Source: Sulfuritalea sp.
GTDB lineage: Bacteria; Pseudomonadota; Gammaproteobacteria; Burkholderiales; Rhodocyclaceae
Assembly (NCBI GenBank): GCA_030651305.1
Contig: JAUSCI010000025.1
Coordinates: 1 to 50,284 of the forward strand
Length of the DNA stretch: 50,284 nucleotides
Direction: 5' to 3'
In this document: piece by piece, positions 18,704 to 49,267 of the stretch
Layout: each line of letters opens with the position of its first letter
Numbering within the stretch: position 1 is the stretch's first letter
Made by a program: the position numbers and the translations under genes
The notes under the pieces: generated by a model
What the model was told of the DNA's origin: nothing
Seen by the model: only the letters and a program-made list of their open reading frames with translations
Database searches by the model: none

Positions 18704-18779
<76 letters not shown>

Positions 18780-18787
18780 AACGATCA

Positions 18788-18863
18788 GTCCCTATCGTCT
18801 AGAGGCCTAGGACATTACCCTTTCACGGTAAGTACCGGGGTTCGAATCCCCGTGGGGACGCCA
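18788..18863 (+). tRNA. tRNA-Glu (TTC)
   Basis: A 76-nt cloverleaf, 8 bp after tRNA-Ala and surely co-transcribed. The acceptor GTCCCTA pairs with TGGGGAC. The anticodon arm ACCCTTTCACGGT carries TTC and the T-arm is CGGGGTTCGAATCCCCG. The 3' CCA is encoded. Confidence 0.97.
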
Positions 18864-20504: not shown

Positions 20505-20621
20505 AGGGGCGGATTATCCATCGGGCCGGCACACGGCCGTTAGAGGGCCTTGCCTAATTCGCAGGCTCCCCCGCGCATAAACTGCCAAAATACGCTGTAC
20601 CCATCCAGGAGGAGCCTTGGA

Positions 20622-22055
20622 ATGAACGCTATAGAACCGGCAGCGCATACAGTGGCAGACGCCGAAACATTCACGCGGGTCTTCGAGCGCATGCACGCCG
20701 CGACGCGGCGCAGCGCGCTAGTGGAACGCTGCGTCCGGCAGGCGCGGCTGGATGCGCTGGCGGCGCTGGTGCATGACAACGCCGAGCGCTTCGTCACGGC
20801 GATTTCAGCCGACTTCGGCCATCGCTCGGCACATGAAACCCGGCTGCTGGAACTGTTTCCCAGCCTTGAGTCGATTCGCCACACGCGTTCCCATTTCGGC
20901 GCATGGATGAAGCCGCAGCGCAAGGCGGCATCTATCTGGTTCCGTCCGGGGCGGGCGCGCATCATCCCGCAGCCGCTGGGAGTGGTCGGCATCATCGTGC
21001 CATGGAACTATCCGCTGTTCCTCGCCGTTTCGCCGCTGGCGGCGGCGCTGGCGGCCGGCAACCGGGTGATGATCAAGATGTCGGAATTCACGCCGCGCAC
21101 CGGCGAACTGCTGGCCGAACTGGTGGCGAAGTATTTCGCCGCCGACGATGTCTCGGTGGTGCTGGGCGATGCGGCGGTCGGCGCTGATTTCGCCCGTCTG
21201 CCCTTCGACCACTTGCTGTTTACCGGATCGACCAAGGTCGGCCACGACATCATGCGCATGGCGGCGGACAAGCTGACGCCGGTGACGCTGGAACTCGGCG
21301 GCAAGTCGCCGGCGATTGTCGGCCCCGACTATTCGATGGAAAAGGCCGCCGAGCGCATCATGGTCGGCAAGCTGCTCAACGCCGGGCAGACCTGCATCGC
21401 GCCCGACTACGTGCTGGTGCCGGCCGGCCGCGAGCAGGCTTTCGTGGACGCCGCGCGCGCCGTTGTGGCGAAGTGCTTCCCGGCAATGGCGACGACGCCG
21501 GATTACACCTCGATCGTCAATGACCGCCACTACCAGCGCCTGCAAGCTTACGTTGCCGACGCGCAGGCGCGCGGCGCGAAGATCGAGCCGCTGTCAACGG
21601 CGAATGCGGACGACGCGCGGCGCAAACTGCCGCCGCTGGCGCTGCTGAATGTCGATGACGGCATGCGCGTGATGCAGGACGAGATCTTCGGCCCGCTGCT
21701 GCCGGTTTTGCCTTACACGGATCTCGACGCCGCGATCGCCTACGTCAACCAGCATCCGCGCCCCTTGGCGCTGTATTGCTTCGAGAACGACGCCGGTCGT
21801 CGCGATCGCGTGCTGAACGAGACGGTGGCCGGCGGCGTCACGGTCAATGACACCATCCTCCACATTGCGCAGGAAGAACTGCCCTTCGGCGGCGTTGGCC
21901 CGAGCGGCATGGGACATTACCACGGCATTGAGGGCTTCAAGACCTTTTCCAAGCAGAAAGCAGTCTTCTATCAATCATGGCTTAATGGCATGTCGTTGTT
22001 CAATCCGCCCTATGGCGCGTTGTTCGAGCGCCTGACCAAGTTCCTGATTCGCTGA
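20622..22055 (+). CDS. Coniferyl-aldehyde-type aldehyde dehydrogenase
   Basis: A 477-residue NAD(P)-dependent aldehyde dehydrogenase. The cofactor segment is VVGIIVPWNYPLFLAVSPLA. The general-base region is LELGGKSPAIVGPDYSME and the catalytic Cys258 is in NAGQTCIAPDYVLVP. It ends with LPFGGVGPSGMGHYHGIEGF. The length and the GQTCIAPDY signature fit the class-3-like group that includes coniferyl and long-chain fatty aldehyde dehydrogenases. ATG 20622 follows an AGGAGGAG site. The lipase gene starts 9 bp after it, so a role in oxidising fatty aldehydes from ester or alcohol breakdown is the contextual inference. Confidence 0.9.
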   Translation: MNAIEPAAHTVADAETFTRVFERMHAATRRSALVERCVRQARLDALAALVHDNAERFVTAISADFGHRSAHETRLLELFPSLESIRHTRSHFGAWMKPQRKAASIWFRPGRARIIPQPLGVVGIIVPWNYPLFLAVSPLAAALAAGNRVMIKMSEFTPRTGELLAELVAKYFAADDVSVVLGDAAVGADFARLPFDHLLFTGSTKVGHDIMRMAADKLTPVTLELGGKSPAIVGPDYSMEKAAERIMVGKLLNAGQTCIAPDYVLVPAGREQAFVDAARAVVAKCFPAMATTPDYTSIVNDRHYQRLQAYVADAQARGAKIEPLSTANADDARRKLPPLALLNVDDGMRVMQDEIFGPLLPVLPYTDLDAAIAYVNQHPRPLALYCFENDAGRRDRVLNETVAGGVTVNDTILHIAQEELPFGGVGPSGMGHYHGIEGFKTFSKQKAVFYQSWLNGMSLFNPPYGALFERLTKFLIR

Positions 22056-22078
22056 AAGTCGGCGATGGCGGCACGGCA
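22054..22078. repeat. Element-like 25-mer over the lipase start codon
   Basis: In the opposite orientation to the other copies, this stretch matches the element at 10120-10144 at 19 of 25 positions. AGTCGGCG is intact and ATGGCG stands where the element has CTGGCG. The ATG is the start codon of the hydrolase. The similarity may be chance. Confidence 0.25.
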
Positions 22079-22982
22079 AATGCGGTGGCTACTGTTCAGC
22101 GAACTGCTGATCTACAGCTTGTTCGGCAACTGGCTGGTAGCGCGTGGCTGGACGCCGCTTGAGGCGGCGGGTTTTGGTTTGGCGGGCTTTCTCGCCGTGC
22201 GCCTGTGCCTCGTCCTGGCGACCTTCGGCTTCATGCTGAAGGGGTCGAACGTGGTCCCCGAGAAATTGCGCATCGGTCCGCTGCAGGCGTTGCGCATGGT
22301 GCTCGAGGAATATGCGGCTCTGATCGTCCTGTTTACCGTGATCCAGCCTTTCGAGAAATTCTGGATGGGCCCCGACCGGCTCGGCCATTGCGCGACGCGC
22401 CCGCTGCCCCTGCTGCTGCTCCACGGCTACCAGTGCAATCGCGGCTTCTGGATATGGATGCGGTCGCGCCTCGAAGTGGCGGGCTGGACCGTGGCGACCC
22501 ACAGCATGGAACCGGTGTGGACCGAAATCGACAACTACGCCGACGGCATTGACCGACGCATCGACGAGGTGCTGGTGGCCACCGGTGCGCCGCAAGTGAT
22601 CCTGATCTGCCACAGCATGGGCGGCCTGGCCGCGCGCGCCTACCTGCGCCGCCACGGCAAGGCCAAGGTGGCGCGCATGATCACGTTGGGCTCGCTGCAT
22701 CATGGTACCGAACTAGCCAGCCTCGGCGTGGGCCCCAACGCCCGCCAGATGCGCATCGGCAATCCTTGGCTGATCGCGCTCGGCGCGCCCGGCGCGGTGC
22801 CCCTGCCGCAGGGTTCCGTGTCGATCTTCAGCTACCACGACAACTACGTGTTTCCGCAGGAGACCAGCTCGCGGCTGGAAGGCGCCACCAACATCGCCAG
22901 CAGCGGCGTCAGCCATCTGGGCATGGCCTTTTCGCCTCGGGTGCTGGGCAGTTTGAAGGAAGCGCTCGAACCATCGGTTTGA
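22065..22982 (+). CDS. Membrane-anchored lipase-like alpha/beta hydrolase
   Basis: A 305-residue protein. Two N-terminal hydrophobic segments (about residues 7-50) anchor it in the membrane. The hydrolase core has the oxyanion motif LLLLHGYQCNRGFW and the nucleophile box ICHSMGGLAARAYLRR. LGSLHHGTELASLG follows as in triacylglycerol lipases, and a late His lies in SSGVSHLGMAFSP. It probably hydrolyses fatty esters. It is sandwiched between aldehyde dehydrogenase and GMC oxidase genes with gaps of 9 and 22 bp, so wax-ester or triacylglycerol turnover is the likely setting. Confidence 0.85.
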   Translation: MAARQMRWLLFSELLIYSLFGNWLVARGWTPLEAAGFGLAGFLAVRLCLVLATFGFMLKGSNVVPEKLRIGPLQALRMVLEEYAALIVLFTVIQPFEKFWMGPDRLGHCATRPLPLLLLHGYQCNRGFWIWMRSRLEVAGWTVATHSMEPVWTEIDNYADGIDRRIDEVLVATGAPQVILICHSMGGLAARAYLRRHGKAKVARMITLGSLHHGTELASLGVGPNARQMRIGNPWLIALGAPGAVPLPQGSVSIFSYHDNYVFPQETSSRLEGATNIASSGVSHLGMAFSPRVLGSLKEALEPSV

Positions 22983-22993
22983 TTTTCAATTGA
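22979..22993. promoter_or_regulatory. Palindrome-like site before the GMC gene
   Basis: TTGATTTTCAATTGA ends 11 bp before the GMC start codon. It matches TTGATGTTCAATCAA (25961-25975), before the acyl-ACP-reductase-like gene, at 12 of 15 positions. It could be an operator shared across the cluster. Confidence 0.3.
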
Positions 22994-23004
22994 TCGGGAA
23001 CGTC

Positions 23005-24600
23005 ATGAAGGAGTTCGACTACATCGTAATAGGCGGCGGCGCAGGGGGCTGTGCCGTGGCGGGGCGTCTTTCGGAGGATCCCGACATCAGCGTATGCCTT
23101 CTCGAAGCCGGGAAGAGCGATGACCAGACCTTGATCAAGGTGCCCTTCTGCACCGCGCTGATGCTGCCCACCACACTCAATAACTGGGCCTTCGAAACCG
23201 TTCCCCAGCCGGGCCTCAACGGCAGGCGCGGCTATGCGCCGCGCGGCAAGGCCCTGGGTGGATCGAGTTCGATCAACGCAATGGTGTATACGCGCGGCCA
23301 TGCCTGGGACTACGACCATTGGGCAGCGCTGGGCAATGACGGCTGGTCCTGGCGGGAAGTGTTGCCATATTTCAAAAAATCGGAACACAACGAGAATTTC
23401 CAGGATGAGTATCACGGACAGGGCGGGCCGCTCAATGTCGCCAATCTGAGATCGATGAATTCCTTCCAGGAAATATATCTTGAGGCCGCCCGGCAGGCGG
23501 GATTCCCGGTGATTGCCGATTTCAACGGCGCCGACCAGGAAGGCATCGGCATCCATCAGGTCACCCAGAAAAATGGCGAGCGCTGGAATGCTGCGCGCGC
23601 CTATCTGACTCCGCATTTGGCCAGTCGCCCCAACTTGACCGTGATCACGCAGGCGCGGGCGCGGCGCATCCTGTTCACCGGCAAACGCGCCAGCGGCGTG
23701 GAATTCCTGCAAGGAGGGGGAATCCAGACGTTCCAGGCGAGGCGCGAACTGATCGTCAGTGGCGGGGCATTGCAATCGCCCCAGCTGCTGCAGCTTTCAG
23801 GCATTGGCGCCGGCGCCGAACTGCAGGAATTCGGCATTCCCGTGATCCACGATTTGCCGGGCGTAGGCAAGAATCTCCAGGACCATCCGGACTATATTTT
23901 CAACTACCGGGCCAAGTCCCTCGATCTTCTCGGCATCTCCCTGGGCGGCTCATTGCAATTGATAAAGGAGATCGGTCGCTACCGCAAGGACCGCACCGGA
24001 ATGATGACGTCGAACGGCGCCGAAGGCGGCGGCTTCATACGGCGATTTCCGGATTCACCGGCGCCGGAATTCCAGGTGCATTTCGTTATTGGCATGATCG
24101 ACAGTCATGCTCGCAAGTTGCACCTGGGGCACGGTTATTCCTGCCATGTCTGCCTGTTGCGGCCCAAGAGCATCGGCACGGTGGGTCTTGCCAGCGCCGA
24201 TCCGGCGGCGGCGCCCAACATCGACCCGAAGTTTTTCGACCATCCCGACGATCTCGACGCCATGGTTGATGGCTTCAAACTGACCCGGAAACTCATGGAT
24301 GCCCCCGCTCTCGCAAATATCCGCAGCGCAGAGCTTTACACCGCGAATGTGCATTCGGACGACGAAATACGCGAAGAACTGAGGAATCGTTCGGACACCA
24401 TCTATCACCCGGTCGGCACCTGCAAAATGGGCGCCGATGCGCTGGCTGTGGTTGACGCGCGCTTGCGCGTGCATGGTCTCGAAGGTCTGCGAGTGGTGGA
24501 TGCCTCCATCATGCCGACGCTGATCGGCGGCAACACCAACGCACCGACCATGATGATCGGCGAAAAGGCCGCCGACATGATACGGGCCGATGTTGGGTGA
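23005..24600 (+). CDS. GMC-family alcohol oxidase/dehydrogenase
   Basis: A 531-residue FAD enzyme. The N-terminal dinucleotide fold is [20 protein letters not shown]. The first GMC signature is [19 protein letters not shown] and the second is [17 protein letters not shown]. The C-terminus has the catalytic His region [10 protein letters not shown] and [22 protein letters not shown] members oxidise choline, glucose, sterols or long-chain alcohols. Next to aldehyde and alcohol dehydrogenases and a lipase, a fatty-alcohol substrate is plausible but not shown. ATG 23005 is preferred to the upstream TTG at 22990. Confidence 0.9.
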
Positions 24601-24658: not shown

Positions 24659-25933
24659 GTGATATCTGACTTGCTGAGCCAGTCACTTCGCACCACCGCT
24701 CTGAGTGCCGCTATGCGCGGCGCCGGACTGGCCGTGCGCTTTCTGCCCATACCGCAGCCTACGATCCTGGTGGGACCGGGTTCCAGCGGCAGGCTGGGAC
24801 AAACCATCGCCGGGTTTGGTCACGCCAGGATTCTGATCGTCACCGACAGCATCATCTCCAAGCTGGGGCTGCTCGACGACCTGACCAAGGCCCTGACCCT
24901 GGGTGGTACCGAATATGTGATATTTGATGCCATAACTCCTGACGCACCGATTCCCCTGATAGAAGAAGGGATAGATTTTTATTGGGAACACGGTTGCGAC
25001 GCCATTGTGGCGTTCGGGGGTGGTTCCTCGATGGATGCCTCCAAGGCCATTGCAGCGGCAGTCTCCAATCCCGGCAAGACGCTGCGCGAGTTGGCCGGCT
25101 ATTTCAAGGGACTGCAAACGCCTGTCAAGATCTACGCCGTTCCTACCACCGCCGGCACTGGCTCGGAGGTGACCGTTGCCGCCGTCATCTCGGATCCGAA
25201 AAGCCATACCAAGCTGGTGATCGTTGATACGCGCCTGGTGCCAAAGATGGCGGCGCTCGATCCTTGCCTGATGACCGGACTGCCGCCCCATATCACTGCA
25301 GCGACAGGCATTGACGCACTGACGCACGCCATCGAAGCCTTTGTCGGGCATTGGGCCAATCCCTACACGGACGACATGGCCTTGTCAGCGGTCGGGCTGA
25401 TATTCGAAAACCTGCGAGTGGCGTACACCGACGGAAAGAACCTGGGAGCGCGGGAGAAAATGTCCCTCGCCGCCACCTACGCCGGATTGGCCTTTACCCG
25501 TGCCAATGTTGGCTATGTGCATGCCATTGCACATCAGTTTGGCGGCAAATACCACACTCCCCACGGCCTTGCCAACGCCATCATGCTGCCGTTGGTTCTG
25601 AAGTATTCGCTCCCGGCCATAACGGACAGGCTGGCCTTGCTGGCGGTGCGCGCCAAACTTGGCCAGGAGAATGAAGCGGACGACGTATTGGCGCAGAAGT
25701 TTCTGGATGCGGTGGATCAACTCAATCTTGACCTGGGGATACCGACCTTCTTGTCAGCCTTGAAGGAGTCCGATATTCCTCAACTGGCCGAAGCCGCATG
25801 CCATGAAGCTCATACTGGCTATCCGGTACCACGCTATATGACGCAAGCCGTTTGCGAAGACATCATCCGCCAGGTGTTGCCGCCCGTCGCTTCAGTAAAG
25901 AAACCGGCTCGGCGCGGAAAGAAAATTGGATAG
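24659..25933 (+). CDS. Iron-containing alcohol dehydrogenase
   Basis: A 424-residue group III alcohol dehydrogenase, starting at GTG behind AAAGGAGAG. The NAD(P)-binding domain has AFGGGSSMDASKAIAA and PTTAGTGSEVT. The metal-binding histidines are in DALTHAIEAFVGH and VHAIAHQFGGKYHTPHGLAN. It interconverts alcohols and aldehydes. It lies 61 bp ahead of the acyl-ACP-reductase-like gene, so the pair could carry acyl to aldehyde to alcohol. A basic C-terminal end (KKPARRGKKIG) echoes, in short form, the lysine tails of its neighbours. Confidence 0.9.
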   Translation: MISDLLSQSLRTTALSAAMRGAGLAVRFLPIPQPTILVGPGSSGRLGQTIAGFGHARILIVTDSIISKLGLLDDLTKALTLGGTEYVIFDAITPDAPIPLIEEGIDFYWEHGCDAIVAFGGGSSMDASKAIAAAVSNPGKTLRELAGYFKGLQTPVKIYAVPTTAGTGSEVTVAAVISDPKSHTKLVIVDTRLVPKMAALDPCLMTGLPPHITAATGIDALTHAIEAFVGHWANPYTDDMALSAVGLIFENLRVAYTDGKNLGAREKMSLAATYAGLAFTRANVGYVHAIAHQFGGKYHTPHGLANAIMLPLVLKYSLPAITDRLALLAVRAKLGQENEADDVLAQKFLDAVDQLNLDLGIPTFLSALKESDIPQLAEAACHEAHTGYPVPRYMTQAVCEDIIRQVLPPVASVKKPARRGKKIG

Positions 25934-25975: not shown

Positions 25976-25994
25976 ATTGATGAGGCCAGAGACT

Positions 25995-28202
25995 ATGAAG
26001 AAAGTAGTTACCGTGACGTTGGGACCGTCCAGGAAGGATTTTGAATTCAAGACACGATTTCTGGGTCAGGAGTTCTCGGTCCGCCGTTTGGGCGCCGACA
26101 AGGACAGCAGCAAGGCCTGGGAGTTGATGCGGCGCCAGCAAGCCAATTCGGATGCCATCGCTTTGAGCGATATGGCCGACCACTATCATGTCGGATTACG
26201 CACGATCGTCAACAAGGAATCGCAGCGCCTGATGCAGGTCGTGACGCGGGTACCGGTCACCACGGGCGCCAGCTTGCGCCGACTGCTGCAAGTGCGGGCC
26301 ATACGCCATGTGCAGAAGGAGTTGGGCAATTACTTCAACAACAATCTGGTTCTGTTTTTGTCCGGCATGCGCAACTACGACATGGCGGTCGCCTTGTCTG
26401 ATTACACCAGGAACCTGAGCTTTGCCGATCCGGTATTCCAGGCGGGTTCGCCTCTTCTGCTGGGTTCGCTCGAGCAACTTGAACTCTACGCCAAGGGCAA
26501 GGAACTTATTTCCGACTTCCTGCCGGGCAAATTCCTGAAGTCCGTCCTGAGCCCCCTGAAGAACAAAATCGTCGCCAATGCCGTCGCCAAGTCCCACGTT
26601 GTTGTCGGCACCTTTCGGGAAATTGAGGCGGTTACCTCTGGCGGCAATCTGGAGGGCAAGACCCTCATCACGTCGGCCGTGGATGACGAGCGACTTGCAT
26701 TTTTCACGAGGCACAAAGTCAATCTGGTGGTGGATGTTTCGCCAAAGCTGTTCGACAAAGTGGTGGGTATCAGCACCATCTCTGCCATGATCCTTGCAGC
26801 GCTGGAAAAGCCGGAATCAGAACTGACCGACCACGATTTTGAGGAAATAATCAACGAACTTGACATCAAGCCGCGCTTGCTCCACCCCACCGGGCATTTC
26901 CGCAACATCCGCCGTTTTGCCTTTGTCGTGCATCCGCTCAGCCAGGAGTACATCAAAAAGGGCTTTCCGCTTCCCAAGGCCACGCCCAAGGTCATCATGG
27001 ACGGGGTCGAGACGCTCGCCGCCTATCTGCCGCCGATGGTCTATTGCAAGATGAGCAACATCATCTCGCCCACGGGCGCCGAGGCCGAAGGCTGGCTGAT
27101 TTCCGTGGGTGGAACGCCCAAGGAAATGCTCTCGCACAGCCCTGAATTTACTTACCGGCGTTTGCTGCATGCATCGAGGATTGCCGAAGGGCTGGGAGCC
27201 CAGATCATGGGTTTGGGTGCCTTCACCAAGGTCGTCGGCGATGCAGGGATTACCGTGGCGCGCCGCGCCAGCATTCCGATTACCACCGGCAATAGCTACT
27301 CCGCATCGGGCGCGCTGTGGGCCGCGGCCGATGCCATGCGACGCATGGGTCTGGTTTCGGTGAAGAAGGATGCCAAGAAAGTACCGGCCAAGACCATGGT
27401 GATTGGTGCGACAGGCTCCATCGGGTCGGTAAGCGCCCGTCTGCTGGCCATGGCCTTCGACGAAGTCGTCATCGCCGGTCGCGACATCAAGAAACTCAAT
27501 GAACTGAGGGACTCCATTTTGGAGGACACACCGGACGCCAAAGTCACTGCATCGACTGATTATGACAGTCTGCTGGGTGATATGGACATGATCGTGACCT
27601 CCACTTCGGGGGCCGGCAAGAAGATTCTGGACATAACCAAAGTCAAGCCGGGTTGCGTCATTACCGATGTTGCCCGTCCGCTGGATCTGCCGGCCGAGGA
27701 GGTGGCCAAGCGTCCTGACGTGCTGGTGATCGAATCGGGTGAAATCGAACTGCCAACCCCGGTCAAGGGCATGAAGTCCATCGGCCTGCCAAAAAACGTC
27801 ATTTACGCCTGCCTGGCGGAAACCATCGTGCTGGCGCTGGAAGGTCGATTCGAGGTATTCACCATCGGCCGCGATACCGTGTGGGAAAAGGTCAAGGAGA
27901 TCTACAAACTCGGCACCAAGCACGGCATGAAGCTGTCGGCCATATCGGGTGTCAAGGGCGTGTACTCCGACGAAGATATTGCCCGGGTGGTGGCCCTCGC
28001 CAGAAAGGCGCGTCTGACCTGGAAGAAATCAGGCGGCACTACGTCGGCAAAGGCTGTGTCGAAGAAGGCCACGGTAAAGAAGGCTGTGGCAAAGAAAGCC
28101 CCAGCCGAAATCAAGACCGCGTCGAAGAAGGTCGCCGCAAAGCGGGCACCGGCAAAGAAAGCGGCGGGCAAGACCATTGTCAAGAAGAAGACAACGGCAT
28201 AG
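25995..28202 (+). CDS. Acyl-ACP-reductase-like protein with N-terminal extension and lysine-rich tail
   Basis: A 735-residue protein. Residues ~330-685 resemble cyanobacterial long-chain acyl-ACP reductase (AAR): LGAFTKVVGDAGITVARRAS then IPITTGNSYSA; the NADPH loop VIGATGSIGS (471 on); IVTSTSGAGK; and YACLAETIVLALEG, whose Cys606 aligns with the acyl-thioester cysteine of AAR, followed by RDTVWEKVKEI. AAR makes fatty aldehyde from acyl-ACP or acyl-CoA. Residues 1-330 are an extra domain I cannot name. Residues ~689-735 are a histone-H1/PhaF-like tail of KKA-type repeats, likely to bind nucleic acid or granule surfaces. ATG 25995 is chosen; ATG 25980 is possible. The enzymatic role is inferred from motifs. 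Confidence 0.75.
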   Translation: MKKVVTVTLGPSRKDFEFKTRFLGQEFSVRRLGADKDSSKAWELMRRQQANSDAIALSDMADHYHVGLRTIVNKESQRLMQVVTRVPVTTGASLRRLLQVRAIRHVQKELGNYFNNNLVLFLSGMRNYDMAVALSDYTRNLSFADPVFQAGSPLLLGSLEQLELYAKGKELISDFLPGKFLKSVLSPLKNKIVANAVAKSHVVVGTFREIEAVTSGGNLEGKTLITSAVDDERLAFFTRHKVNLVVDVSPKLFDKVVGISTISAMILAALEKPESELTDHDFEEIINELDIKPRLLHPTGHFRNIRRFAFVVHPLSQEYIKKGFPLPKATPKVIMDGVETLAAYLPPMVYCKMSNIISPTGAEAEGWLISVGGTPKEMLSHSPEFTYRRLLHASRIAEGLGAQIMGLGAFTKVVGDAGITVARRASIPITTGNSYSASGALWAAADAMRRMGLVSVKKDAKKVPAKTMVIGATGSIGSVSARLLAMAFDEVVIAGRDIKKLNELRDSILEDTPDAKVTASTDYDSLLGDMDMIVTSTSGAGKKILDITKVKPGCVITDVARPLDLPAEEVAKRPDVLVIESGEIELPTPVKGMKSIGLPKNVIYACLAETIVLALEGRFEVFTIGRDTVWEKVKEIYKLGTKHGMKLSAISGVKGVYSDEDIARVVALARKARLTWKKSGGTTSAKAVSKKATVKKAVAKKAPAEIKTASKKVAAKRAPAKKAAGKTIVKKKTTA

Positions 28203-28391: not shown

Positions 28392-28850
28392 ATGGTAAAG
28401 AAGCTCGTGGTAAAGAAACTCAAAGGCATCGGCGAAGACAGTCAGCTTTCCGCCACAATTCGTGAATCCGCCCAGCAGATATGGCTGGCCGGGCTTGGTG
28501 CGTTCGCCAAGGCACAACGGGAAGGCAACAAGGTATTCGACGCGCTGGTTCGCCAGGGAGAGTCGATCCAGCAGAAAACCCGCAAGGTGGCCGAGGACAA
28601 GGTCACCGAAATGGCTGCCAAGGCGACCGGTACCTGGGACAAACTCGAACAGGTTTTCGAGAATCGGGTGGCTCGTTCGTTAAGCAGTCTGGGTGTGCCG
28701 ACGAAAGGTGATGTCGCGGCGCTGGCCAAGCGCGTGGCGGAATTGAAGGCGGCGGTGGATAAACTGAACGCCAGCTCAGCCAAGGCCGTTAAGCCGAAAA
28801 GCGCAGCGGTTAAGCCCGCGCGTAAGGCAGCACCCAAGTCGGCCTCCTGA
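28392..28850 (+). CDS. Phasin (PhaI/PhaF-type) with basic C-terminal tail
   Basis: A 152-residue phasin-family protein. The central amphipathic helix has IRESAQQIWLAGLGAFAKAQ followed by REGNKVFDALVRQGE, the hallmark of PhaI/PhaF phasins that coat storage granules. A heptad-like coiled coil (LAKRVAELKAAVDKLNA) follows, and the last ~30 residues are an AKP-rich basic tail (PKSAAVKPARKAAPKSA). In pseudomonads such tails tie granules to the nucleoid. ATG 28392 has a CAGGAG site. It directly follows the reductase-like gene, whose tail is similar, suggesting both sit on one lipid or PHA granule. Confidence 0.88.
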   Translation: MVKKLVVKKLKGIGEDSQLSATIRESAQQIWLAGLGAFAKAQREGNKVFDALVRQGESIQQKTRKVAEDKVTEMAAKATGTWDKLEQVFENRVARSLSSLGVPTKGDVAALAKRVAELKAAVDKLNASSAKAVKPKSAAVKPARKAAPKSAS

Positions 28851-30484: not shown

Positions 30485-30880
30485 ATGCCATCCTGTTTTC
30501 TACGCGCTGCCATTTTCGCCGTCGTCACGGTCGGTGCCTCGCTCGCCCATGCCCAGCAGGCGCAGCCGGGCCTGTTCGAATCGATCGGCGGCCTGTTCAA
30601 ACCGGCCGATAGCCGGGCGGCCAGCGAAGAGAAACCCGCCCCCGCCACGCCCAATCTCTCCGCGGTAATTCCGCAGGGCGAACGCCGCGTCGCGCTGGTC
30701 ATCGGCAACAACGCCTACCGCCACGTCAAGCCGCTGGACAATGCCGTCGCCGACGCCAAAGCCATGGCGCGCGAATTCCGTGCCCTCGGCTTTCGTTTTG
30801 CCAGCACGCTTCCCATTGCCGGAGCCGCTGAATTCACGGATGCGGCGGGTGTGCCTGGAAGCATCCACGGGCCGTCATGA
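30485..30880 (+). pseudogene. Truncated caspase-like (peptidase C14) gene
   Basis: The frame encodes a signal peptide (AAIFAVVTVGASLAHAQ), a short linker, and then only the first strand and helix of a caspase domain: RRVALVIGNNAYRHVKPLDN and AVADAKAMAREFRALGF. Homology ends there. The remaining 28 residues are unrelated and the catalytic His and Cys are absent. A complete bacterial metacaspase would need at least 150 more residues. The remnant abuts a strong hairpin at 30896-30930. Confidence 0.75.
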
Positions 30881-31053: not shown

Positions 31054-32700
31054 TCAGGCGATGTTGCGAAAGCGCTTCGGTACGCGTGCCGCAGGTTCCG
31101 GGGCAGGGATTTCCTGCGGCTGCGCGACAGTCTCGACAGTTGGTTTTGTAGCGGGGGCCTTGGCGGCCTTCGGCCGGGCCTTGGTCGCCGCGGATCGCCG
31201 TCTCACCAGCGCCGATTTTTCGGGTTTGCCCGCGACAAGCGGCGGCGGCATCTGTTTGCCGAACAACTGCTGCTCGACTTGCGCCAGGTCAAACGGCTCT
31301 TCCCAGTCGAGCATCAGCAGCGCCAGCATCATCTTGTCGAATTCGGCGGCGAACAGCGGCGTGATGGCTTCCGGATCAGGAACGAAATGACGGTCGGTGA
31401 TCAGGCCGAACTGAACGTTGTCGTTGTAGCTCAGAATCGAGACGCCAATGCCGATGTCGCCTGACTGCGGGACCCAGAACATCACCTGATCGAGACGCGA
31501 GCCCGCCAGATACAGGGGTTGCCTCGGTCCCGGCACGTTGGTCATCACCATGCTGGCCTTGGCCGCAAGAATGTCGAGAAACTGCTGCTGCGCGATCTTC
31601 GGCGCAACACCGACCGCGCCGAGCAGCGCCAGGGTGAGCGGGGGTTGATACGAGCCCTTGAGCGCATTCATGCGTTCCCGCACCAGGAACAGGCGCGCGA
31701 AGGGATTGCCTTCATGCAGGGGCAGCAGCAGCGTGCCGAGGCCAAAGCGATTGCCCAGCGTGCCTTCGTGTCTGGCTGAGCGCAGATTGACCGGAATCAT
31801 GGCGCGGACTTCCACATCGCGCACCGACTCGCCCTTTTGCAGAAAATAGGCACGAAATGCGCCGGCCACCGCCGACAACAGAATGTCGTTGACCGAGCAG
31901 CGGAGTGCTTTGCCCAGCGCCTTGACCTCGGCCAGCGGAATCAGGTCCGACCACGCGACGCGCTTGAAAGTGCTGGTCTTGCCCTTGAGCCTGGTGGCCG
32001 AATCCGCGGGCATCGCGAGCAACTTGGCGAGTTCGGTGAGGAGGCCTATGCCGTGCCTGCCATAGGTCACAAGACGATCCCGGTCAGACGCCAGATCGAG
32101 TGCCTTGCCGCCCAGTTTGGTGCCCATGCTGAGCGCCGACGCAACTGCCTCGGTCAGCGTTTCAAGCAGGCCGCCGGACACCTCGTCGGCGTCGGCTTCT
32201 GCCTGGTCAGGAGCAAGCTGTTTCTGCGCCACGGCGGTGGGCGAAAGGTCCGTCAGGGAGAGGATGACGCCGACCAGCGCAATGCCGTCAGCGATGCTGT
32301 GATGGATGCGCACCACCATTGCCGAACCGCCGTCGTAATCCTCGATCACGTCGAAGCGCCACAGCGGCTTGCCTGGATTGAGTGGCTGCACGGCCAATTC
32401 GCTGGCCAGCGCCTGCAATTCCTGCTTGCCTGCGGAGGCAGGCAGGGCGCGGCGTCTCAGGTGTGCGTCGAGATCGAAATCGGGATCATCCTGCCACCAT
32501 GCACCGGTAAGCTCTTGCACCGCGCACTGGCGAAAGCGCCGGTAGCGACCGACCAGACGCGCTTCCACCGTGTTGCGCAGCCGGTCGAAGTCAAGCCGCT
32601 GATTGAATACCATGACGCCGACAATCATCATCAGATTGGTCGGGCGATCCATCCGCAGCCAGGCCGTATCGACGGCTGACATTCTTTCACGTTGGAGCAT
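31054..32700 (-). CDS. Wax ester synthase/diacylglycerol acyltransferase (WS/DGAT)
   Basis: A 548-residue bifunctional acyltransferase. The catalytic HHSIADG lies at residues 133-139 (HHxxxDG). The C-terminal half has NVPGPRQPLYLAGSRLDQVM and DIGIGVSILSYNDNVQFGL of the WS/DGAT C-terminal domain. It joins acyl-CoA to a fatty alcohol or diacylglycerol. ATG 32700 follows a GGAGGA site. After about residue 490 comes an atypical K/A/P-rich tail (TKARPKAAKAPATKP and more). The junction with the conserved part is encoded by a copy of the 25-bp dispersed element (31196-31220). It is divergent from an acyl-CoA-binding protein gene. Confidence 0.93.
   Translation of the reverse strand: MLQRERMSAVDTAWLRMDRPTNLMMIVGVMVFNQRLDFDRLRNTVEARLVGRYRRFRQCAVQELTGAWWQDDPDFDLDAHLRRRALPASAGKQELQALASELAVQPLNPGKPLWRFDVIEDYDGGSAMVVRIHHSIADGIALVGVILSLTDLSPTAVAQKQLAPDQAEADADEVSGGLLETLTEAVASALSMGTKLGGKALDLASDRDRLVTYGRHGIGLLTELAKLLAMPADSATRLKGKTSTFKRVAWSDLIPLAEVKALGKALRCSVNDILLSAVAGAFRAYFLQKGESVRDVEVRAMIPVNLRSARHEGTLGNRFGLGTLLLPLHEGNPFARLFLVRERMNALKGSYQPPLTLALLGAVGVAPKIAQQQFLDILAAKASMVMTNVPGPRQPLYLAGSRLDQVMFWVPQSGDIGIGVSILSYNDNVQFGLITDRHFVPDPEAITPLFAAEFDKMMLALLMLDWEEPFDLAQVEQQLFGKQMPPPLVAGKPEKSALVRRRSAATKARPKAAKAPATKPTVETVAQPQEIPAPEPAARVPKRFRNIA
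31196..31220. repeat. 25-bp dispersed element copy inside the WS/DGAT gene
   Basis: It matches 10120-10144 at 22 of 25 positions. In the gene's direction it encodes roughly KSALVRR, a different frame from the copies at 5297 and 43479. It sits exactly where the conserved enzyme ends and the low-complexity tail begins. Confidence 0.6.
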
Positions 32701-32817
32701 GGCGCGTGTCCTCCAGGTTGACGGCATACTCCCGGGATACCGTCCCCGCTTCCAGCGGAGACATATAATAGTCGAAGCCAAATTCGGGCGACCAATTTTA
32801 TTGCGACGAAGGACGAT
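32701..32817. promoter_or_regulatory. Divergent promoter region, WS/DGAT and acyl-CoA-binding protein
   Basis: 117 bp separate the two start codons. On the plus strand TATAAT (32764-32769) is a good -10 for the acyl-CoA-binding protein gene. On the minus strand GGAGGA serves the WS/DGAT start. Shared control of the two genes is likely. Confidence 0.5.
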
Positions 32818-33075
32818 ATGAGCAAACTCAAGAAAACATTCGAAGCCGCGGTGGCCGATTCCAAGAAGCTGCCGGAGCGGCCCTCGAACGATGTGCTGTT
32901 GCAACTCTACGCACTCTACAAGCAGGCGACCGACGGCGATGTCGAGGGCAAGCGTCCCGGCTTCACCGACATGGTGGGTCGTGCCAAGTACGATGCCTGG
33001 GCGGCGATCAAGGGCACCACCGGCGATGACGCCATGACGCGCTATGTTGGACTGATCAGTTCCCTGAAAGACTGA
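32818..33075 (+). CDS. Acyl-CoA-binding protein (ACBP)
   Basis: An 85-residue four-helix protein matching eukaryote-type ACBP throughout: FEAAVADSKKLPERPSNDVL, LYALYKQATDGDVEG, RPGFTDMVGRAKYDAWAAIK. The YKQATxGD and KYDAW residues that grip the CoA adenine and phosphate are present. ACBP buffers and delivers long-chain acyl-CoA. It is uncommon in bacteria and here is divergent from WS/DGAT, implying supply of acyl-CoA for ester synthesis. Its TGA abuts the PilZ gene's stop codon. Confidence 0.93.
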   Translation: MSKLKKTFEAAVADSKKLPERPSNDVLLQLYALYKQATDGDVEGKRPGFTDMVGRAKYDAWAAIKGTTGDDAMTRYVGLISSLKD

Positions 33076-33841: not shown

Positions 33842-35506
<1,665 letters not shown>

Positions 35507-38263: not shown

Positions 38264-39976
38264 CTAGTGGCGCAACTTGGCGTAAGCCGCCAGCAATCGC
38301 TGGTGCAGATCGCAGCCCTTGAGACCCATGCCCGGTGTCTCGATGCCGAAGAAGCGTTGCTCCTGCCGCAGCATGGCCTCGGCCGTCGCTACGCTGGCGC
38401 GGCCGTAAAGATGTTCCAGCGCATTGCGGTGTCCGTCGGCGCTGCCTAGCTCCATCAGGGTCTCGATGCAGCGATAAACGAGGCGGCGGTTGGTGTCGAG
38501 CTGCTCGAAGTGGCGCACCCATTCGCAACCATCGCGGATCGCCTCATCGTCACCGATGGCCAGGGCCAGCAGGGTCTTCAACTCGCCCACCCGCAGGTCG
38601 CTCCATAGCGAGCCTTCATCGGCGGCCAGCCCGATCAGCGCAGCGACGGGCTTCTGGTCCTGCAGGTCAAGCTCCGTCAGCGTCTCCAGCAGATCGGCGC
38701 ATTCGTCGTCGTCCAGTTCCGGCAGGTGCAGGATGGCCTCGCGGATCGTGTTGCCGACGCTGTTGTTCTCCCATTCCAGATCATCCAGCGGGTAGATTTC
38801 CGACATGCCCGGCACCAGAATCCGGCAGGCATAGACGCCGAGGTGACTGAAGTCGGCGATGTAGATGTCGTGGCCGGTGCGATGCACACAGTCCACCAGC
38901 CACCGGTAATCTTCCGCGGTGGTGTCGCTGAAATTCCAGTCGCAGAATTCGAAATCCGGCCTGTCGCCGAGAAAGTTCCAGCTGATGATGCCGCTGGAAT
39001 CGACGAAGTGGATTTCGATATTGGGCGAGGCGGCGATTTCGTCGAGATCGAAGCCGGGCGCAGGGAAGCCGGCGAGCGCGTCGAGGCCACGGCCCTGCAG
39101 CAGTTCGGTGAGGGCGCGTTCGAGGGCGATCTCGAAACGCGGATGGGCACCGAAGCTGGAGAAGCAGCCTTGATCATCGGGGTGGAGCAGGGTGACGTTC
39201 ATCACCGGATATTCGCCGCCGAGCGAGGCATCCTTGACCAGGATGCCGAATCCCGCCTGGCGCAGGCCGCCGATGCCGGCCGCGATGCGCGGATAGCGGG
39301 CAACCACCTGCTCCGGCACATCCGGCAGGCAAAGGCCTTCGCTGATGATGCGAAACTTGATGTGGCGTTCGAGAATTTCCGACAGGGCCTGGGTGCGGGC
39401 CTCGGTTTCCGTGTTGCCGGCCGACATGCCGTTGCTGACGTACAGGTTGCCGATGATATTGACCGGAAACCAGACAGTCGCGCCGTCGCGCTGTCGAACG
39501 TAGGGCAGGGAGCAGATGCCGCGCTCTGCATTGCCCGAATTCAGGTCTATGAGGACATCGGCATCGATGGAACTGTCTGGGTTGTAAAGCTGGCGCAACT
39601 CGGGGGTCAGCAGTTGTTCCGGCCATTCACCGTTTTCGCCGGGCTGAAACCAGCGTTCCCGCGGGTAGTGGGCAAAACTGCGTCGGGCAAACTGATCGCC
39701 CAAGTAATAGTGCGTCCAGAAATAGTTGCAGGAAAGGCGCTCGAAGAATTCGCCCAGGGCGCTCGCCAGGGCGGCCAGCCGCGACGCCCCCTTGCCATTG
39801 GTGAACAGCAGCGCACAGTCCCGGTCACGCACATGCACCGACCAGACGCCATCCACCGGATTCAGCCAGGAGCGCTCCTCGACATGAAAATCGAGGGCTT
39901 CGAGCTTGCCCTGCATGGTGGCAATCGACGATTCGAGCGAGGCATCCTTGCCCGGGATGAAGCTTTCTGTTCGCAT
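38264..39976 (-). CDS. ycaO: YcaO-domain protein (S12 methylthiotransferase accessory factor)
   Basis: A 570-residue protein close in length and layout to E. coli YcaO (586). It opens SFIPGKDASLESSIATMQGK and continues with ALLFTNGKGASRLAALASAL, GEFFERLSCNYFWTHY and NIIGNLYVSNGMSAGNTETE, followed by FGAHPRFEIALERALTELLQ, HFVDSSGIISWNF and HLGVYACRILVPGMSEIYP. The ATP-binding Glu residues of the YcaO fold are in these segments. A helical C-terminal domain follows. E. coli YcaO stimulates RimO, and rimO is at 15915-17261. It is not next to a natural-product cluster. Confidence 0.93.
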   Translation of the reverse strand: MRTESFIPGKDASLESSIATMQGKLEALDFHVEERSWLNPVDGVWSVHVRDRDCALLFTNGKGASRLAALASALGEFFERLSCNYFWTHYYLGDQFARRSFAHYPRERWFQPGENGEWPEQLLTPELRQLYNPDSSIDADVLIDLNSGNAERGICSLPYVRQRDGATVWFPVNIIGNLYVSNGMSAGNTETEARTQALSEILERHIKFRIISEGLCLPDVPEQVVARYPRIAAGIGGLRQAGFGILVKDASLGGEYPVMNVTLLHPDDQGCFSSFGAHPRFEIALERALTELLQGRGLDALAGFPAPGFDLDEIAASPNIEIHFVDSSGIISWNFLGDRPDFEFCDWNFSDTTAEDYRWLVDCVHRTGHDIYIADFSHLGVYACRILVPGMSEIYPLDDLEWENNSVGNTIREAILHLPELDDDECADLLETLTELDLQDQKPVAALIGLAADEGSLWSDLRVGELKTLLALAIGDDEAIRDGCEWVRHFEQLDTNRRLVYRCIETLMELGSADGHRNALEHLYGRASVATAEAMLRQEQRFFGIETPGMGLKGCDLHQRLLAAYAKLRH

Positions 39977-46891: not shown

Positions 46892-48832
46892 TCAGAGCTT
46901 GAGTTCTGCGGAGAGCATGACACGGCGACCGAGTTCGGGATAGGCGTTGAAGCTGGTGCCGGCGCCGTTGCGAATTCCGTAACTGTAGTAGCGCTTGTCG
47001 AACAGGTTGTCGGCCGAAATTCCCCAGTTCCAGTTTCCCGTCGCGTAGGAATACTTCAGATCGACCAGGCTATAGGTCGGCATCAGGGCGAAGCTGTTGA
47101 TCTGGTCGTTGTCGTAGCGCTGGGCGCCGACGTAGCGACTGCTGGCAGCGAGGCTGTGCCCGCCGCCGATGCGCCACGCGGCATTCAGGGTCAGCAATTG
47201 GCGCGGCACCAGCGGCACTTCCTTGCCGGCCAGGTTGATGCCTTCGTAATTGCCCGAGCGGAAGCTCGACCGCGTGTGGCGATAGCTGGCGCCGAGGGTC
47301 AGTGACGACATGGGATGCCAGTTGCCGTCGAGCTCGAAGCCGGTGCGCTGGGTCGGCGCCAGGTTGGCGTTGGCGCCGAAGCCGAAGGTTGGCGTGCCGT
47401 TCAGGACCAGCAGGTGGATTTCATTGCTCAGATAGGAAGCGAAGGCGCTCGCCCGCAGCCGCGCCGAGCGATTGCGAAACTCGACGCCGAGTTCGCCGTC
47501 ATGCGACTTCTGTGGCAGCAGCAGCGTCACCGCTCCGGTGAACACGTTGTAGTTTTCGTTGGCCGTGGCGACGCGGAAGCTCTGGCCCCATTTTCCATAG
47601 GCATCCCAGCCCGCCAAAAGTTGCTGGCGCAGGGAAAGCTCAAAGGCATTCAGCGTGTCGCGCCGCGCCGCGGTGGCCGGCTGCGAGAAGCTGTCCTTAT
47701 GTGAACTGGTACGCAAGCCGGCGGCCATATCGGTTCCCGCCGTGGGCGTCCAGGTTTCCTGCGCATAGAAGGCGTCATTGGTCTGGCTGGCGTTGGCCAG
47801 GCCGAACAGGTCGACATTGCTGTAGTTCCAGCGCGAGCTGTCAATGCCGAGGACCAGACTTCCGTTGCGGTGCGGAATGCGCAGACGAGGACTGACGGTG
47901 AAAGTATCCGAATCCGTGGCGTTCGCCGAGAACAATGCAGGAAACTTGTTGTCGGCCTTCTTGTTGCGGTAGTCGATGTCGACCGCCAGTTCGCCGATGC
48001 CGACCGAGCGGGTGGCACCGATGCCGATGTTCCAGGTGTCGGTCAGGCCGTGGTCGCTTTGAGTCGCCGACCCGGCCGGGTCCGATGCCAGTTGCGCCGC
48101 CGTGCGGGCTCCGGGAAAGCGGATCTTCTGCCGGCTGCTGCCGAAGCGCAGCGCCGCTGTGGCATCTGCGTCCTGCCAACGTGCGACGCCATCGAACTTG
48201 TCCTCGCGATCGTGATTGTTCACCCGGTAGTTCGACGATACGTAGCGGTTGGCGTTGAGCAGCACGCCGACCGCGCCGCTGGCGAACTCAATCGTGGCGC
48301 GGACGTCGCTGGTGCCGTAATCGCCGTAGGCGGCGCGCAGCGATGCGAGCCGGCCTTCGCTGGCCGGGTTGCGCGTGATTATGTTGATGGTGCCGGCGGT
48401 GGCGCCGCCGCCATAGAGCACTGCCCCGGAACCGCGCAGGATCTCGATGCGATCGATCGCATTGAGCGGGATCGCCGAGAGCAGCGCCGGCGTTAGCTCA
48501 TTTTCACTGAGGCGCCGGCCGTCAAGGAGGATCAGCGTGTTCTGGTCTCCGGACATGCCGAAGCCACGCAGGTCGATTTGCCAGTTGTTGCTGCCGGAAC
48601 TGTTGCGCACATGAACGCCGCCGAGCTTGGCCAGGATCTCCGGCACGCTGGTCGCAGACGACTGGGCAATGGCGGCTGCGCCAATTACCGTTGCTCCGGC
48701 TGCGGTTGGGCCGGGACTTCCTGCGAAGCGCGTGGCGGTGACGACCACGGCCGCCGGATCATCCGCAGCGATTGAAACACAAGGAGAAATCAGGATTGCC
48801 GCGCAGGCGGCGATGACGAAACGGTTGTGCAT
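46892..48832 (-). CDS. btuB: TonB-dependent cobalamin receptor, BtuB-like
   Basis: A 646-residue outer-membrane receptor. The signal peptide (FVIAACAAILISPCVSIAA) is followed by a TonB box (AAVVVTATR). The plug domain reads SVPEILAKLGGVHVRNSSGS, LILLDGRRLSENELTPALL and RIEILRGSGAVLYGGGATAG, then TINIITRNP, the landmark of TonB plugs. The rest is barrel strands ending at MLSAELKL. The length is near that of E. coli BtuB (614). A cobalamin riboswitch lies directly upstream on the same strand, strongly supporting vitamin B12 as ligand. Confidence 0.93.
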   Translation of the reverse strand: MHNRFVIAACAAILISPCVSIAADDPAAVVVTATRFAGSPGPTAAGATVIGAAAIAQSSATSVPEILAKLGGVHVRNSSGSNNWQIDLRGFGMSGDQNTLILLDGRRLSENELTPALLSAIPLNAIDRIEILRGSGAVLYGGGATAGTINIITRNPASEGRLASLRAAYGDYGTSDVRATIEFASGAVGVLLNANRYVSSNYRVNNHDREDKFDGVARWQDADATAALRFGSSRQKIRFPGARTAAQLASDPAGSATQSDHGLTDTWNIGIGATRSVGIGELAVDIDYRNKKADNKFPALFSANATDSDTFTVSPRLRIPHRNGSLVLGIDSSRWNYSNVDLFGLANASQTNDAFYAQETWTPTAGTDMAAGLRTSSHKDSFSQPATAARRDTLNAFELSLRQQLLAGWDAYGKWGQSFRVATANENYNVFTGAVTLLLPQKSHDGELGVEFRNRSARLRASAFASYLSNEIHLLVLNGTPTFGFGANANLAPTQRTGFELDGNWHPMSSLTLGASYRHTRSSFRSGNYEGINLAGKEVPLVPRQLLTLNAAWRIGGGHSLAASSRYVGAQRYDNDQINSFALMPTYSLVDLKYSYATGNWNWGISADNLFDKRYYSYGIRNGAGTSFNAYPELGRRVMLSAELKL

Positions 48833-48949
48833 GGAAAACTCCCAATACCCGGCGAGCGTCCCCGCAGCCGGTAGGTGGCAATTGAATGTCTGGGAGGTGA
48901 GGGTGATGGACGGGGTCGGAACAAACCCCCGGCACGCCGCAACCCCGCA

Positions 48950-49155
48950 ACGCATTCGCTGGTTTGTCCCTGGCCGGTCTCCGGGCTTGAAAGTCTTGGT
49001 TCATCGCCTTCCCGGGTTGGTCCCAGTGGCTACTTGATGAACCCGCACTTCCTTACCGTTGCGGGGGCAGCGCCGGAATCGAGTTGTTGACTCTCACCGG
49101 CTTCCCGTTTCACCCGGCACGGAAAACCATGCACGGGCACCACGAACGGGAAGCA
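48950..49155 (-). ncRNA. Cobalamin riboswitch
   Basis: Read on the minus strand, the region has the class-defining elements in order: GGTGCCCGTG, GGGAAGCCGGTG, CGCTGCCCCCGCAACGGTAA, CCACTGGGA, GGGAAGGCGATGA and the B12 box AGCCCGGAGACCGGCC (48972-48987 on the plus strand). CGTTCG and CGAATG at the ends can form stem P1. A GGGG/CCCC hairpin between it and the btuB start may be the expression platform. On binding adenosylcobalamin it should turn off btuB and the downstream btuCD. Ends are approximate. Confidence 0.93.
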
Positions 49156-49267
49156 GTATAGCGCGGCAAGAGCCATTTGCGGCCGAGCGCCTTCATGCCG
49201 CAGTCGACGGGCGTGCCCGGTGCCGAGGCGGAGCCGATCATCGAAGTCCCTGGACTTGGCACAAGAC

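Follow-up and report, generated by a model that had tools for sequence, protein, structure and literature searches.

The gene at positions 25995 to 28202 (+) of a 50,284-nucleotide contig stretch from Sulfuritalea sp. (JAUSCI010000025.1, assembly GCA_030651305.1; the whole stretch is called the window) encodes what appears to be a tandem protein of the acyl-(acyl carrier protein) reductase (AAR) type with a basic tail. It probably supplies storage-wax synthesis with fatty aldehydes made from fatty-acid thioesters. The explanation that we favor, with moderate confidence in the whole of it, is that an active and a pseudo AAR copy stand in tandem, that the protein makes fatty aldehyde for wax esters, and that basic tails hold the pathway together. 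The computed evidence consists of the reductase family, the alignment of a cysteine, signs of duplication, the gene neighborhood, and the recurrence of the tails.

The assembly has 3.9 Mb in 82 contigs, and the genome is 97.6% complete. One scan of genome contigs gave 199 relatives, and the best 80 were used for locus and tail counts, which skews the picture of distribution toward close relatives. The alignment A1 has 50 rows, the window protein and 49 of the 80. A reading made earlier from the sequence alone had proposed this 735-residue open reading frame (ORF), and its coordinates hold, while its interpretation is borne out in part; the relatives support the ATG start at 25995 rather than an in-frame TTG at 25977.

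The reductase domain

The C-terminal part of the protein has the AAR fold and belongs to the AAR-type thioester reductase superfamily. Family and PDB matches place the domain at residues 306-665 (26910-27989, +), and a stand-alone relative begins at the same boundary. The sequence-only reading had recognized an AAR-like region but set it at residues 330-685. Its motifs are present: LGAFTKVV at residues 407-414, the dinucleotide loop GATGSIG (GxxGxxG) at residues 471-477 (27405-27425, +), and YACLAETIVLALEG, which contains Cys606 (27810-27812, +). A further motif, PITTG, lies at residues 428-432 (27276-27290, +). Cys606 had been proposed as the thioester cysteine, and the alignments agree: it is the equivalent of AAR Cys294 and PigE Cys296, pairs with AAR residue 294 in residue-by-residue alignments counted by hand, and is invariant across all 50 rows of A1. 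The catalytic role of the AAR and PigE cysteines is described in the available portions of PMC8341465, PMC8187606, and PMC9594044. The structure model, consulted for the position of Cys606 beside the nicotinamide, does not include the cofactor, and several of its loops have pLDDT below 50.

By sequence comparison, the reductase half of PigE, rather than AAR proper, is the nearest among the curated families. The best phmmer match in the PDB is PigE (4ppm, E 7.5e-30), with AAR (6jzq) at E 1.2e-12. In NCBIfam the PigE model (NF053554) matches residues 307-679 with E 2.8e-53, but at 181 bits this is below its curated cut-off of 850, and only model positions 1-364 of 837 are matched. The AAR family model AcACP_reductase (TIGR04058) matches residues 346-646 with E 6e-18, and its 65.3 bits fall short of the cut-off of 449.7. 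The enzyme is acyl-ACP-reductase-like, as had been suggested, in its superfamily, but by score it is not a cyanobacterial AAR proper. No aminotransferase domain is among its Pfam matches up to E 10, and it has no Pfam match to the phasin domain (PF05597), which is present in the neighboring gene at 28392-28850.

Reductase domains of this type also occur in other arrangements. Genome G348 (L012/L130) has a stand-alone AAR-type reductase gene without the N-terminal domain, split by an apparent assembly frameshift. Four large ORFs of 845 to 2655 residues (L151 in genome G118, L144, L141, and L147), some of assembly-line size, contain AAR-type reductase domains with Cys at the position of Cys606.

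The N-terminal copy

The N-terminal domain (residues 1-300; 25995-26894, +) has the AAR fold and appears to be a degenerate copy of the reductase. In structure comparison it gives Z scores of 12.9-14.3 with AAR and TAD and at most 9.9 with folds of the periplasmic-binding-protein or dehydrogenase type. With hhalign it shows a collinear match to a diverse reductase profile, above shuffles and controls. The best local match pairs PVTTG at residues 87-91 (26253-26267, +) with PITTG of the reductase domain. In the same register GMRN at residues 124-127 (26364-26375, +) falls at the site of the cofactor loop of the active copy, and Ser260 (26772-26774, +) aligns with Cys606 and is mostly Asn in the relatives shown. 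At the counterpart of G474 the glycine is retained (G124, invariant in A1); at that of G477 there is N127, which is Gly in L145 and L146, where GxxG is retained. This copy lacks the features of a working reductase: the Cys606 position is Ser, Asn, or Asp in the rows shown, and the cofactor glycines are incomplete. As part of the explanation we favor, and with the same moderate confidence, the copy would have lost its cofactor glycines and cysteine and would serve as a pseudoreductase.

The domain had been called unknown, which is true of Pfam searches with the window copy, but the structure comparison assigns it the AAR fold. Other members give only scattered Pfam matches (best E 0.016), a PHROG search gives a single weak match (E 0.23), and the best hit of a PDB profile search is a PLP homeostasis protein (E 0.037). 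A free-standing family was considered for this domain and rejected: of 398 genomes sampled from the phylum, 3 have it, this one included, and always inside a frame of 695-745 residues.

Some results count against a duplication. Foldseek places sugar-binding periplasmic proteins slightly ahead (E 1.0e-5 for 6hb0_A, 6.2e-5 for TAD, 7.4e-5 for AAR), and the margin in TM score is small (0.43-0.50 for AAR and TAD, 0.42 for the best other row shown). With a narrow, non-overlapping profile the signal is weak (probability 2.3%, score 24.1; 5 of 200 shuffles reach 24.0); it is clear with the diverse reductase profile only. The domain might instead be an unrelated two-lobed alpha/beta domain, similar to periplasmic binding proteins or dehydrogenases, that regulates the same reductase in response to a ligand. 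We regard this as unlikely, since the Z scores with AAR and TAD clearly exceed those of such folds and the profile match to the reductase is collinear and beats shuffles and controls.

Gene neighborhood

The neighboring genes suggest a pathway from acyl thioester to wax ester. An iron-containing alcohol dehydrogenase (Fe-ADH; 24659-25933, +), identified with Pfam, lies 61 bp upstream and is proposed to carry out the step from aldehyde to alcohol. Downstream are a phasin (PF05597; 28392-28850, +) with a basic tail and a wax-ester/triacylglycerol synthase (WS/DGAT; 31054-32904, -), assigned with Pfam and NCBIfam, with a K/A/P-rich tail and an uncertain start codon. A long-chain fatty-acid-CoA ligase of the FadD type (33842-35506, -) is a possible source of acyl-CoA. 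A polyhydroxyalkanoate (PHA)-system protein is also encoded near the gene. The Fe-ADH is a conserved neighbor: of the 80 loci 75 could be scored, and in 65 of these it lies directly upstream, no more than 600 bp away; another 5 have it elsewhere in the locus, and it is absent from 5.

WS/DGAT lies directly downstream in 13 of 67 scorable loci and elsewhere in 12. At least three kinds occur. One (L003, L057, L071, L081, L089, and L101) is mutually 64-77% identical and co-directional with the reductase, and the WS/DGAT of L078 is 32-35% identical to it. Relatives of the window WS/DGAT (48% and 46%) adjoin the reductase, in convergent orientation, in L069 and L073. Within the genus, a class of WS/DGAT with E below 1e-70, that of the reductase-adjacent copy of genome G012, is found in 10 of 17 genomes with the reductase and 2 of 14 without it (p 0.024). 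The cut was picked after the list had been seen, and the genome of the window lacks this strong-scoring class, so this association is only suggestive. The lack of the class in this genome weighs against a wax-ester role, as do the 42 of 67 loci in which WS/DGAT was not found within the limited flanks. Every one of the 31 genus genomes has a WS/DGAT, the 14 without the reductase included, so that WS/DGAT alone is no sign of wax. Shared ancestry also means that the locus counts are not independent. Two more WS/DGAT genes lie close together elsewhere in this genome (L132, G000:C59:33000-47000), with a TetR-like gene nearby. PF07993 has seven matches over its cut-off in the same genome (best E 1.8e-12), but it also matches in all 14 control genomes and is therefore not diagnostic for another fatty acyl reductase.

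The pathway could also run in the direction of breakdown, with wax-derived fatty alcohol oxidized to aldehyde by a GMC alcohol dehydrogenase or the Fe-ADH and the aldehyde converted to acyl-CoA by the window enzyme. Genes for an aldehyde dehydrogenase (ALDH), an alpha/beta hydrolase, and a GMC alcohol dehydrogenase lie upstream (20550-24600, +), and this set adjoins the gene in Sulfuritalea-type loci (L030-L042). Outside these loci, however, GMC was not found, ALDH-like matches occur only in L079, L081, L082, L094, and L099, and the hydrolase only in L081 and L082, whereas the Fe-ADH is conserved. Furthermore ALDH already provides an oxidative route, and the characterized relatives act as reductases in the portions of PMC8341465, PMC8187606, and PMC9594044 available. 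We consider breakdown improbable. Conversion of the aldehyde to alkane by an aldehyde-deformylating oxygenase (ADO), as in cyanobacteria, hardly deserves credence and was rejected. The AAR-type fold and cysteine would fit it, but PF11266 (ADO) has no matches in the genome of the window, while the control search detects it in Synechococcus elongatus.

Basic tails

The reductase ends in a K/A-rich basic tail (residues 678-735; 28026-28199, +) that recurs in its relatives. A tail of KKA repeats had been noticed from the sequence alone; it is real, but at about 58 residues it is longer than the 47 proposed. At least 25 residues follow position 677 in 70 of the 76 loci with an available C-terminus (mean 74). 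When anchored on the last Trp, which leaves 9 of the 80 relatives not anchorable or scorable, 67 of 71 have the tail, and all of these are net positive (median +18). Among the six loci with fewer than 25 residues, L097, L100, L103, L104, and L109 are truly tailless, while L107 is N-terminally truncated and was mis-registered. A K/A-rich tail is also absent from L131, L145, and L146, which do not belong to the 80. In the 67 relatives the tails contain 22% K, 33% A, 11% P, and 2% D+E, compared with 7% K and 10% A in the body of the protein. Such lysine enrichment would not be expected from base drift in high-GC genomes.

Similar tails are found on particular neighbors. Among 31 likely window genes (hand-picked ORFs), the C-termini richest in K+R+A+P are those of the reductase, the phasin, and the WS/DGAT. 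With a threshold of at least 60% K+R+A+P and a net charge of at least +5, applied to neighbors matching with more than 100 bits (except phasin), tails are found on all 15 phasins, on 15 of the 25 WS/DGATs, and on 34 of the 71 Fe-ADHs, but on none of 76 TetR, GMC, ALDH, ACS, ABH, and TPR proteins. PhaF is a known phasin with such a tail (PMC3574117, in part), so the phasin count is less surprising than the tailed enzymes. Without the score filter, 35 of the 67 co-directional Fe-ADHs have tails, and none of the 5 on the opposite strand does. Fe-ADH is present in 65 of 66 scorable tailed loci and 1 of 5 tailless loci, and it was not found in the tailless L131, L145, and L146, an association that phylogeny confounds.

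Several observations do not fit a tail shared by the whole pathway. Only about half of the Fe-ADHs pass the threshold. The opposite-strand copies of L090, L100, L102, and L108 are tailless (that of L078 is marginally below the threshold), and the reductases of L090, L102, and L108 have tails although their Fe-ADHs do not. The WS/DGATs of L069, L073, L078, and L083 also lack a basic tail.

The tail may bind nucleic acid, polyphosphate, or acidic acyl carrier protein instead of a lipid or PHA inclusion, a contender to which we give a little less than an even chance. The protein has sub-threshold matches to HC2 and to a histone-H1-like model. According to the available parts of PMC9239181 and PMC3574117, the K/P/A-rich domains of AlgP and PhaF bind DNA, and AlgP associates with polyphosphate granules, the spacing of which requires its KPAA domain. 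Restriction of the tails to phasin, WS/DGAT, Fe-ADH, and reductase, with none in the six other neighbor families, speaks against this alternative. Such restricted tails are nevertheless compatible with polyanion binding, which could be the route to a granule, and placement through a polyanion is as possible as direct placement on lipid.

Proposed pathway

For catalysis, substrate, the role of the N-terminal copy, and localization, we infer the following scheme. Cys606 of the C-terminal copy would accept a long-chain acyl group delivered by acyl-CoA or acyl-ACP, hydride from NAD(P)H would reduce it, and fatty aldehyde would be released. These steps are modeled by analogy on AAR, PigE, and TamH as described in the available portions of PMC8341465, PMC8187606, and PMC9594044. 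In the last of these TamH requires NADH and yields no product with C12-CoA, so the carrier and cofactor of the window enzyme are not to be presumed. The N-terminal copy may be a built-in dimer partner, or it may dock either the acyl carrier or the enzyme that acts next. From gene order, the adjacent Fe-ADH would convert the aldehyde to alcohol, and WS/DGAT would esterify the alcohol to wax. Through the basic tails on the reductase, the dehydrogenase, WS/DGAT, and the phasin, the pathway would be kept in place at a storage inclusion or a polyanion surrounding it.

A more specific form of this scheme is possible but rather doubtful. It has a wax-ester line on the inclusion, with the K/A/P-rich tails as a shared low-complexity address on the four proteins and the dead AAR copy as a carrier dock or a port for handing over the aldehyde. 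Such an address could gather the enzymes so that the reactive fatty aldehyde stays contained.

Distribution and other features of the window

Among named records, the nearest come from Sulfuritalea, Rhodocyclales, and beta-proteobacterial metagenome-assembled genomes (84-90% identity). The titles of the 80 relatives are mainly of Burkholderiales/Rhodocyclales type, and some carry Gammaproteobacteria, Acidobacteria, Thermoanaerobaculia, or Desulfobacterales labels. Within the genus, 17 of 31 genomes have the gene. Matches over the E-value threshold occur in 31 of 300 genomes sampled from the order, but they span most of the protein in only three (this genome, G578, and G542); for the class the figure is 16 of 369 sampled genomes, two with a full-length match (this genome and G201). 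A plasmid search matched 16 records; in none does the match reach 80% of the query, and most are annotated as class III aminotransferases.

Elsewhere in the window, a cobalamin riboswitch (Rfam, 110 bits; 48955-49159, -) immediately precedes the gene for a TonB-dependent receptor (46892-48955, -), and two tRNA genes are in tandem (18704-18776 and 18788-18860, +). The gene at 38264-39976 (-) matches, over the NCBIfam cut-off, the YcaO accessory factor for ribosomal protein S12 methylthiolation. A short ORF at 30485-30880 (+) resembles what we take to be the start of a caspase-family protein, apparently cut short beside the TPR gene.

Comparison with known systems

The chemistry proposed here is known; what appears new is the joining of an active and a degenerate copy in tandem, followed by a basic tail. 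None of the papers listed in searches of open-license literature indicated such an architecture. For acyl-ACP reductase combined with Burkholderiales the one hit was a cyanobacterial study, and no paper came up for Sulfuritalea and wax ester or for Fe-ADH together with acyl-CoA reductase and wax ester synthase. If the proposal is true, AAR-type chemistry reaches a likely wax-ester role in Betaproteobacteria, and the AAR fold includes a fusion of an active enzyme and a pseudoenzyme. The recurring tails offer a simple, testable hypothesis for the placement of several bacterial enzymes on one inclusion, and the conserved pair of reductase and Fe-ADH is relevant to fatty-alcohol and wax engineering.

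The closest known systems are the thioester reductases at the N-terminus of PigE and the C-terminus of TamH, from prodigiosin and tambjamine synthesis; PigE is the best NCBIfam and PDB sequence match, and in PigE-type rows the cysteine and cofactor loop align with those of the window reductase. Unlike PigE and TamH, the window protein has no matched aminotransferase domain; it has instead a degenerate N-terminal AAR copy and a basic tail, and its gene context is Fe-ADH and WS/DGAT. The cyanobacterial AAR (6jzq, 6jzu, 6jzy, and 6jzz) is 21% identical in alignment, but the window protein is a tandem with a tail, in a genome without ADO. TAD of the carmabin pathway (9e4s and 9e56), characterized here by PDB titles alone, is a domain of a biosynthetic pathway. 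The K/P/A-rich domains of PhaF and AlgP resemble the tail in composition, whereas this tail, with its putative binding, is carried by an enzyme without a phasin domain. Wax-ester gene clusters in Pseudomonadota with Maqu_2507-type fatty acyl-CoA reductases are described in the available part of PMC10351704. That pathway also feeds fatty alcohol to WS/DGAT, but it is reported to use a single reductase of the short-chain dehydrogenase/reductase type, in contrast to the AAR-type reductase and separate Fe-ADH proposed here.
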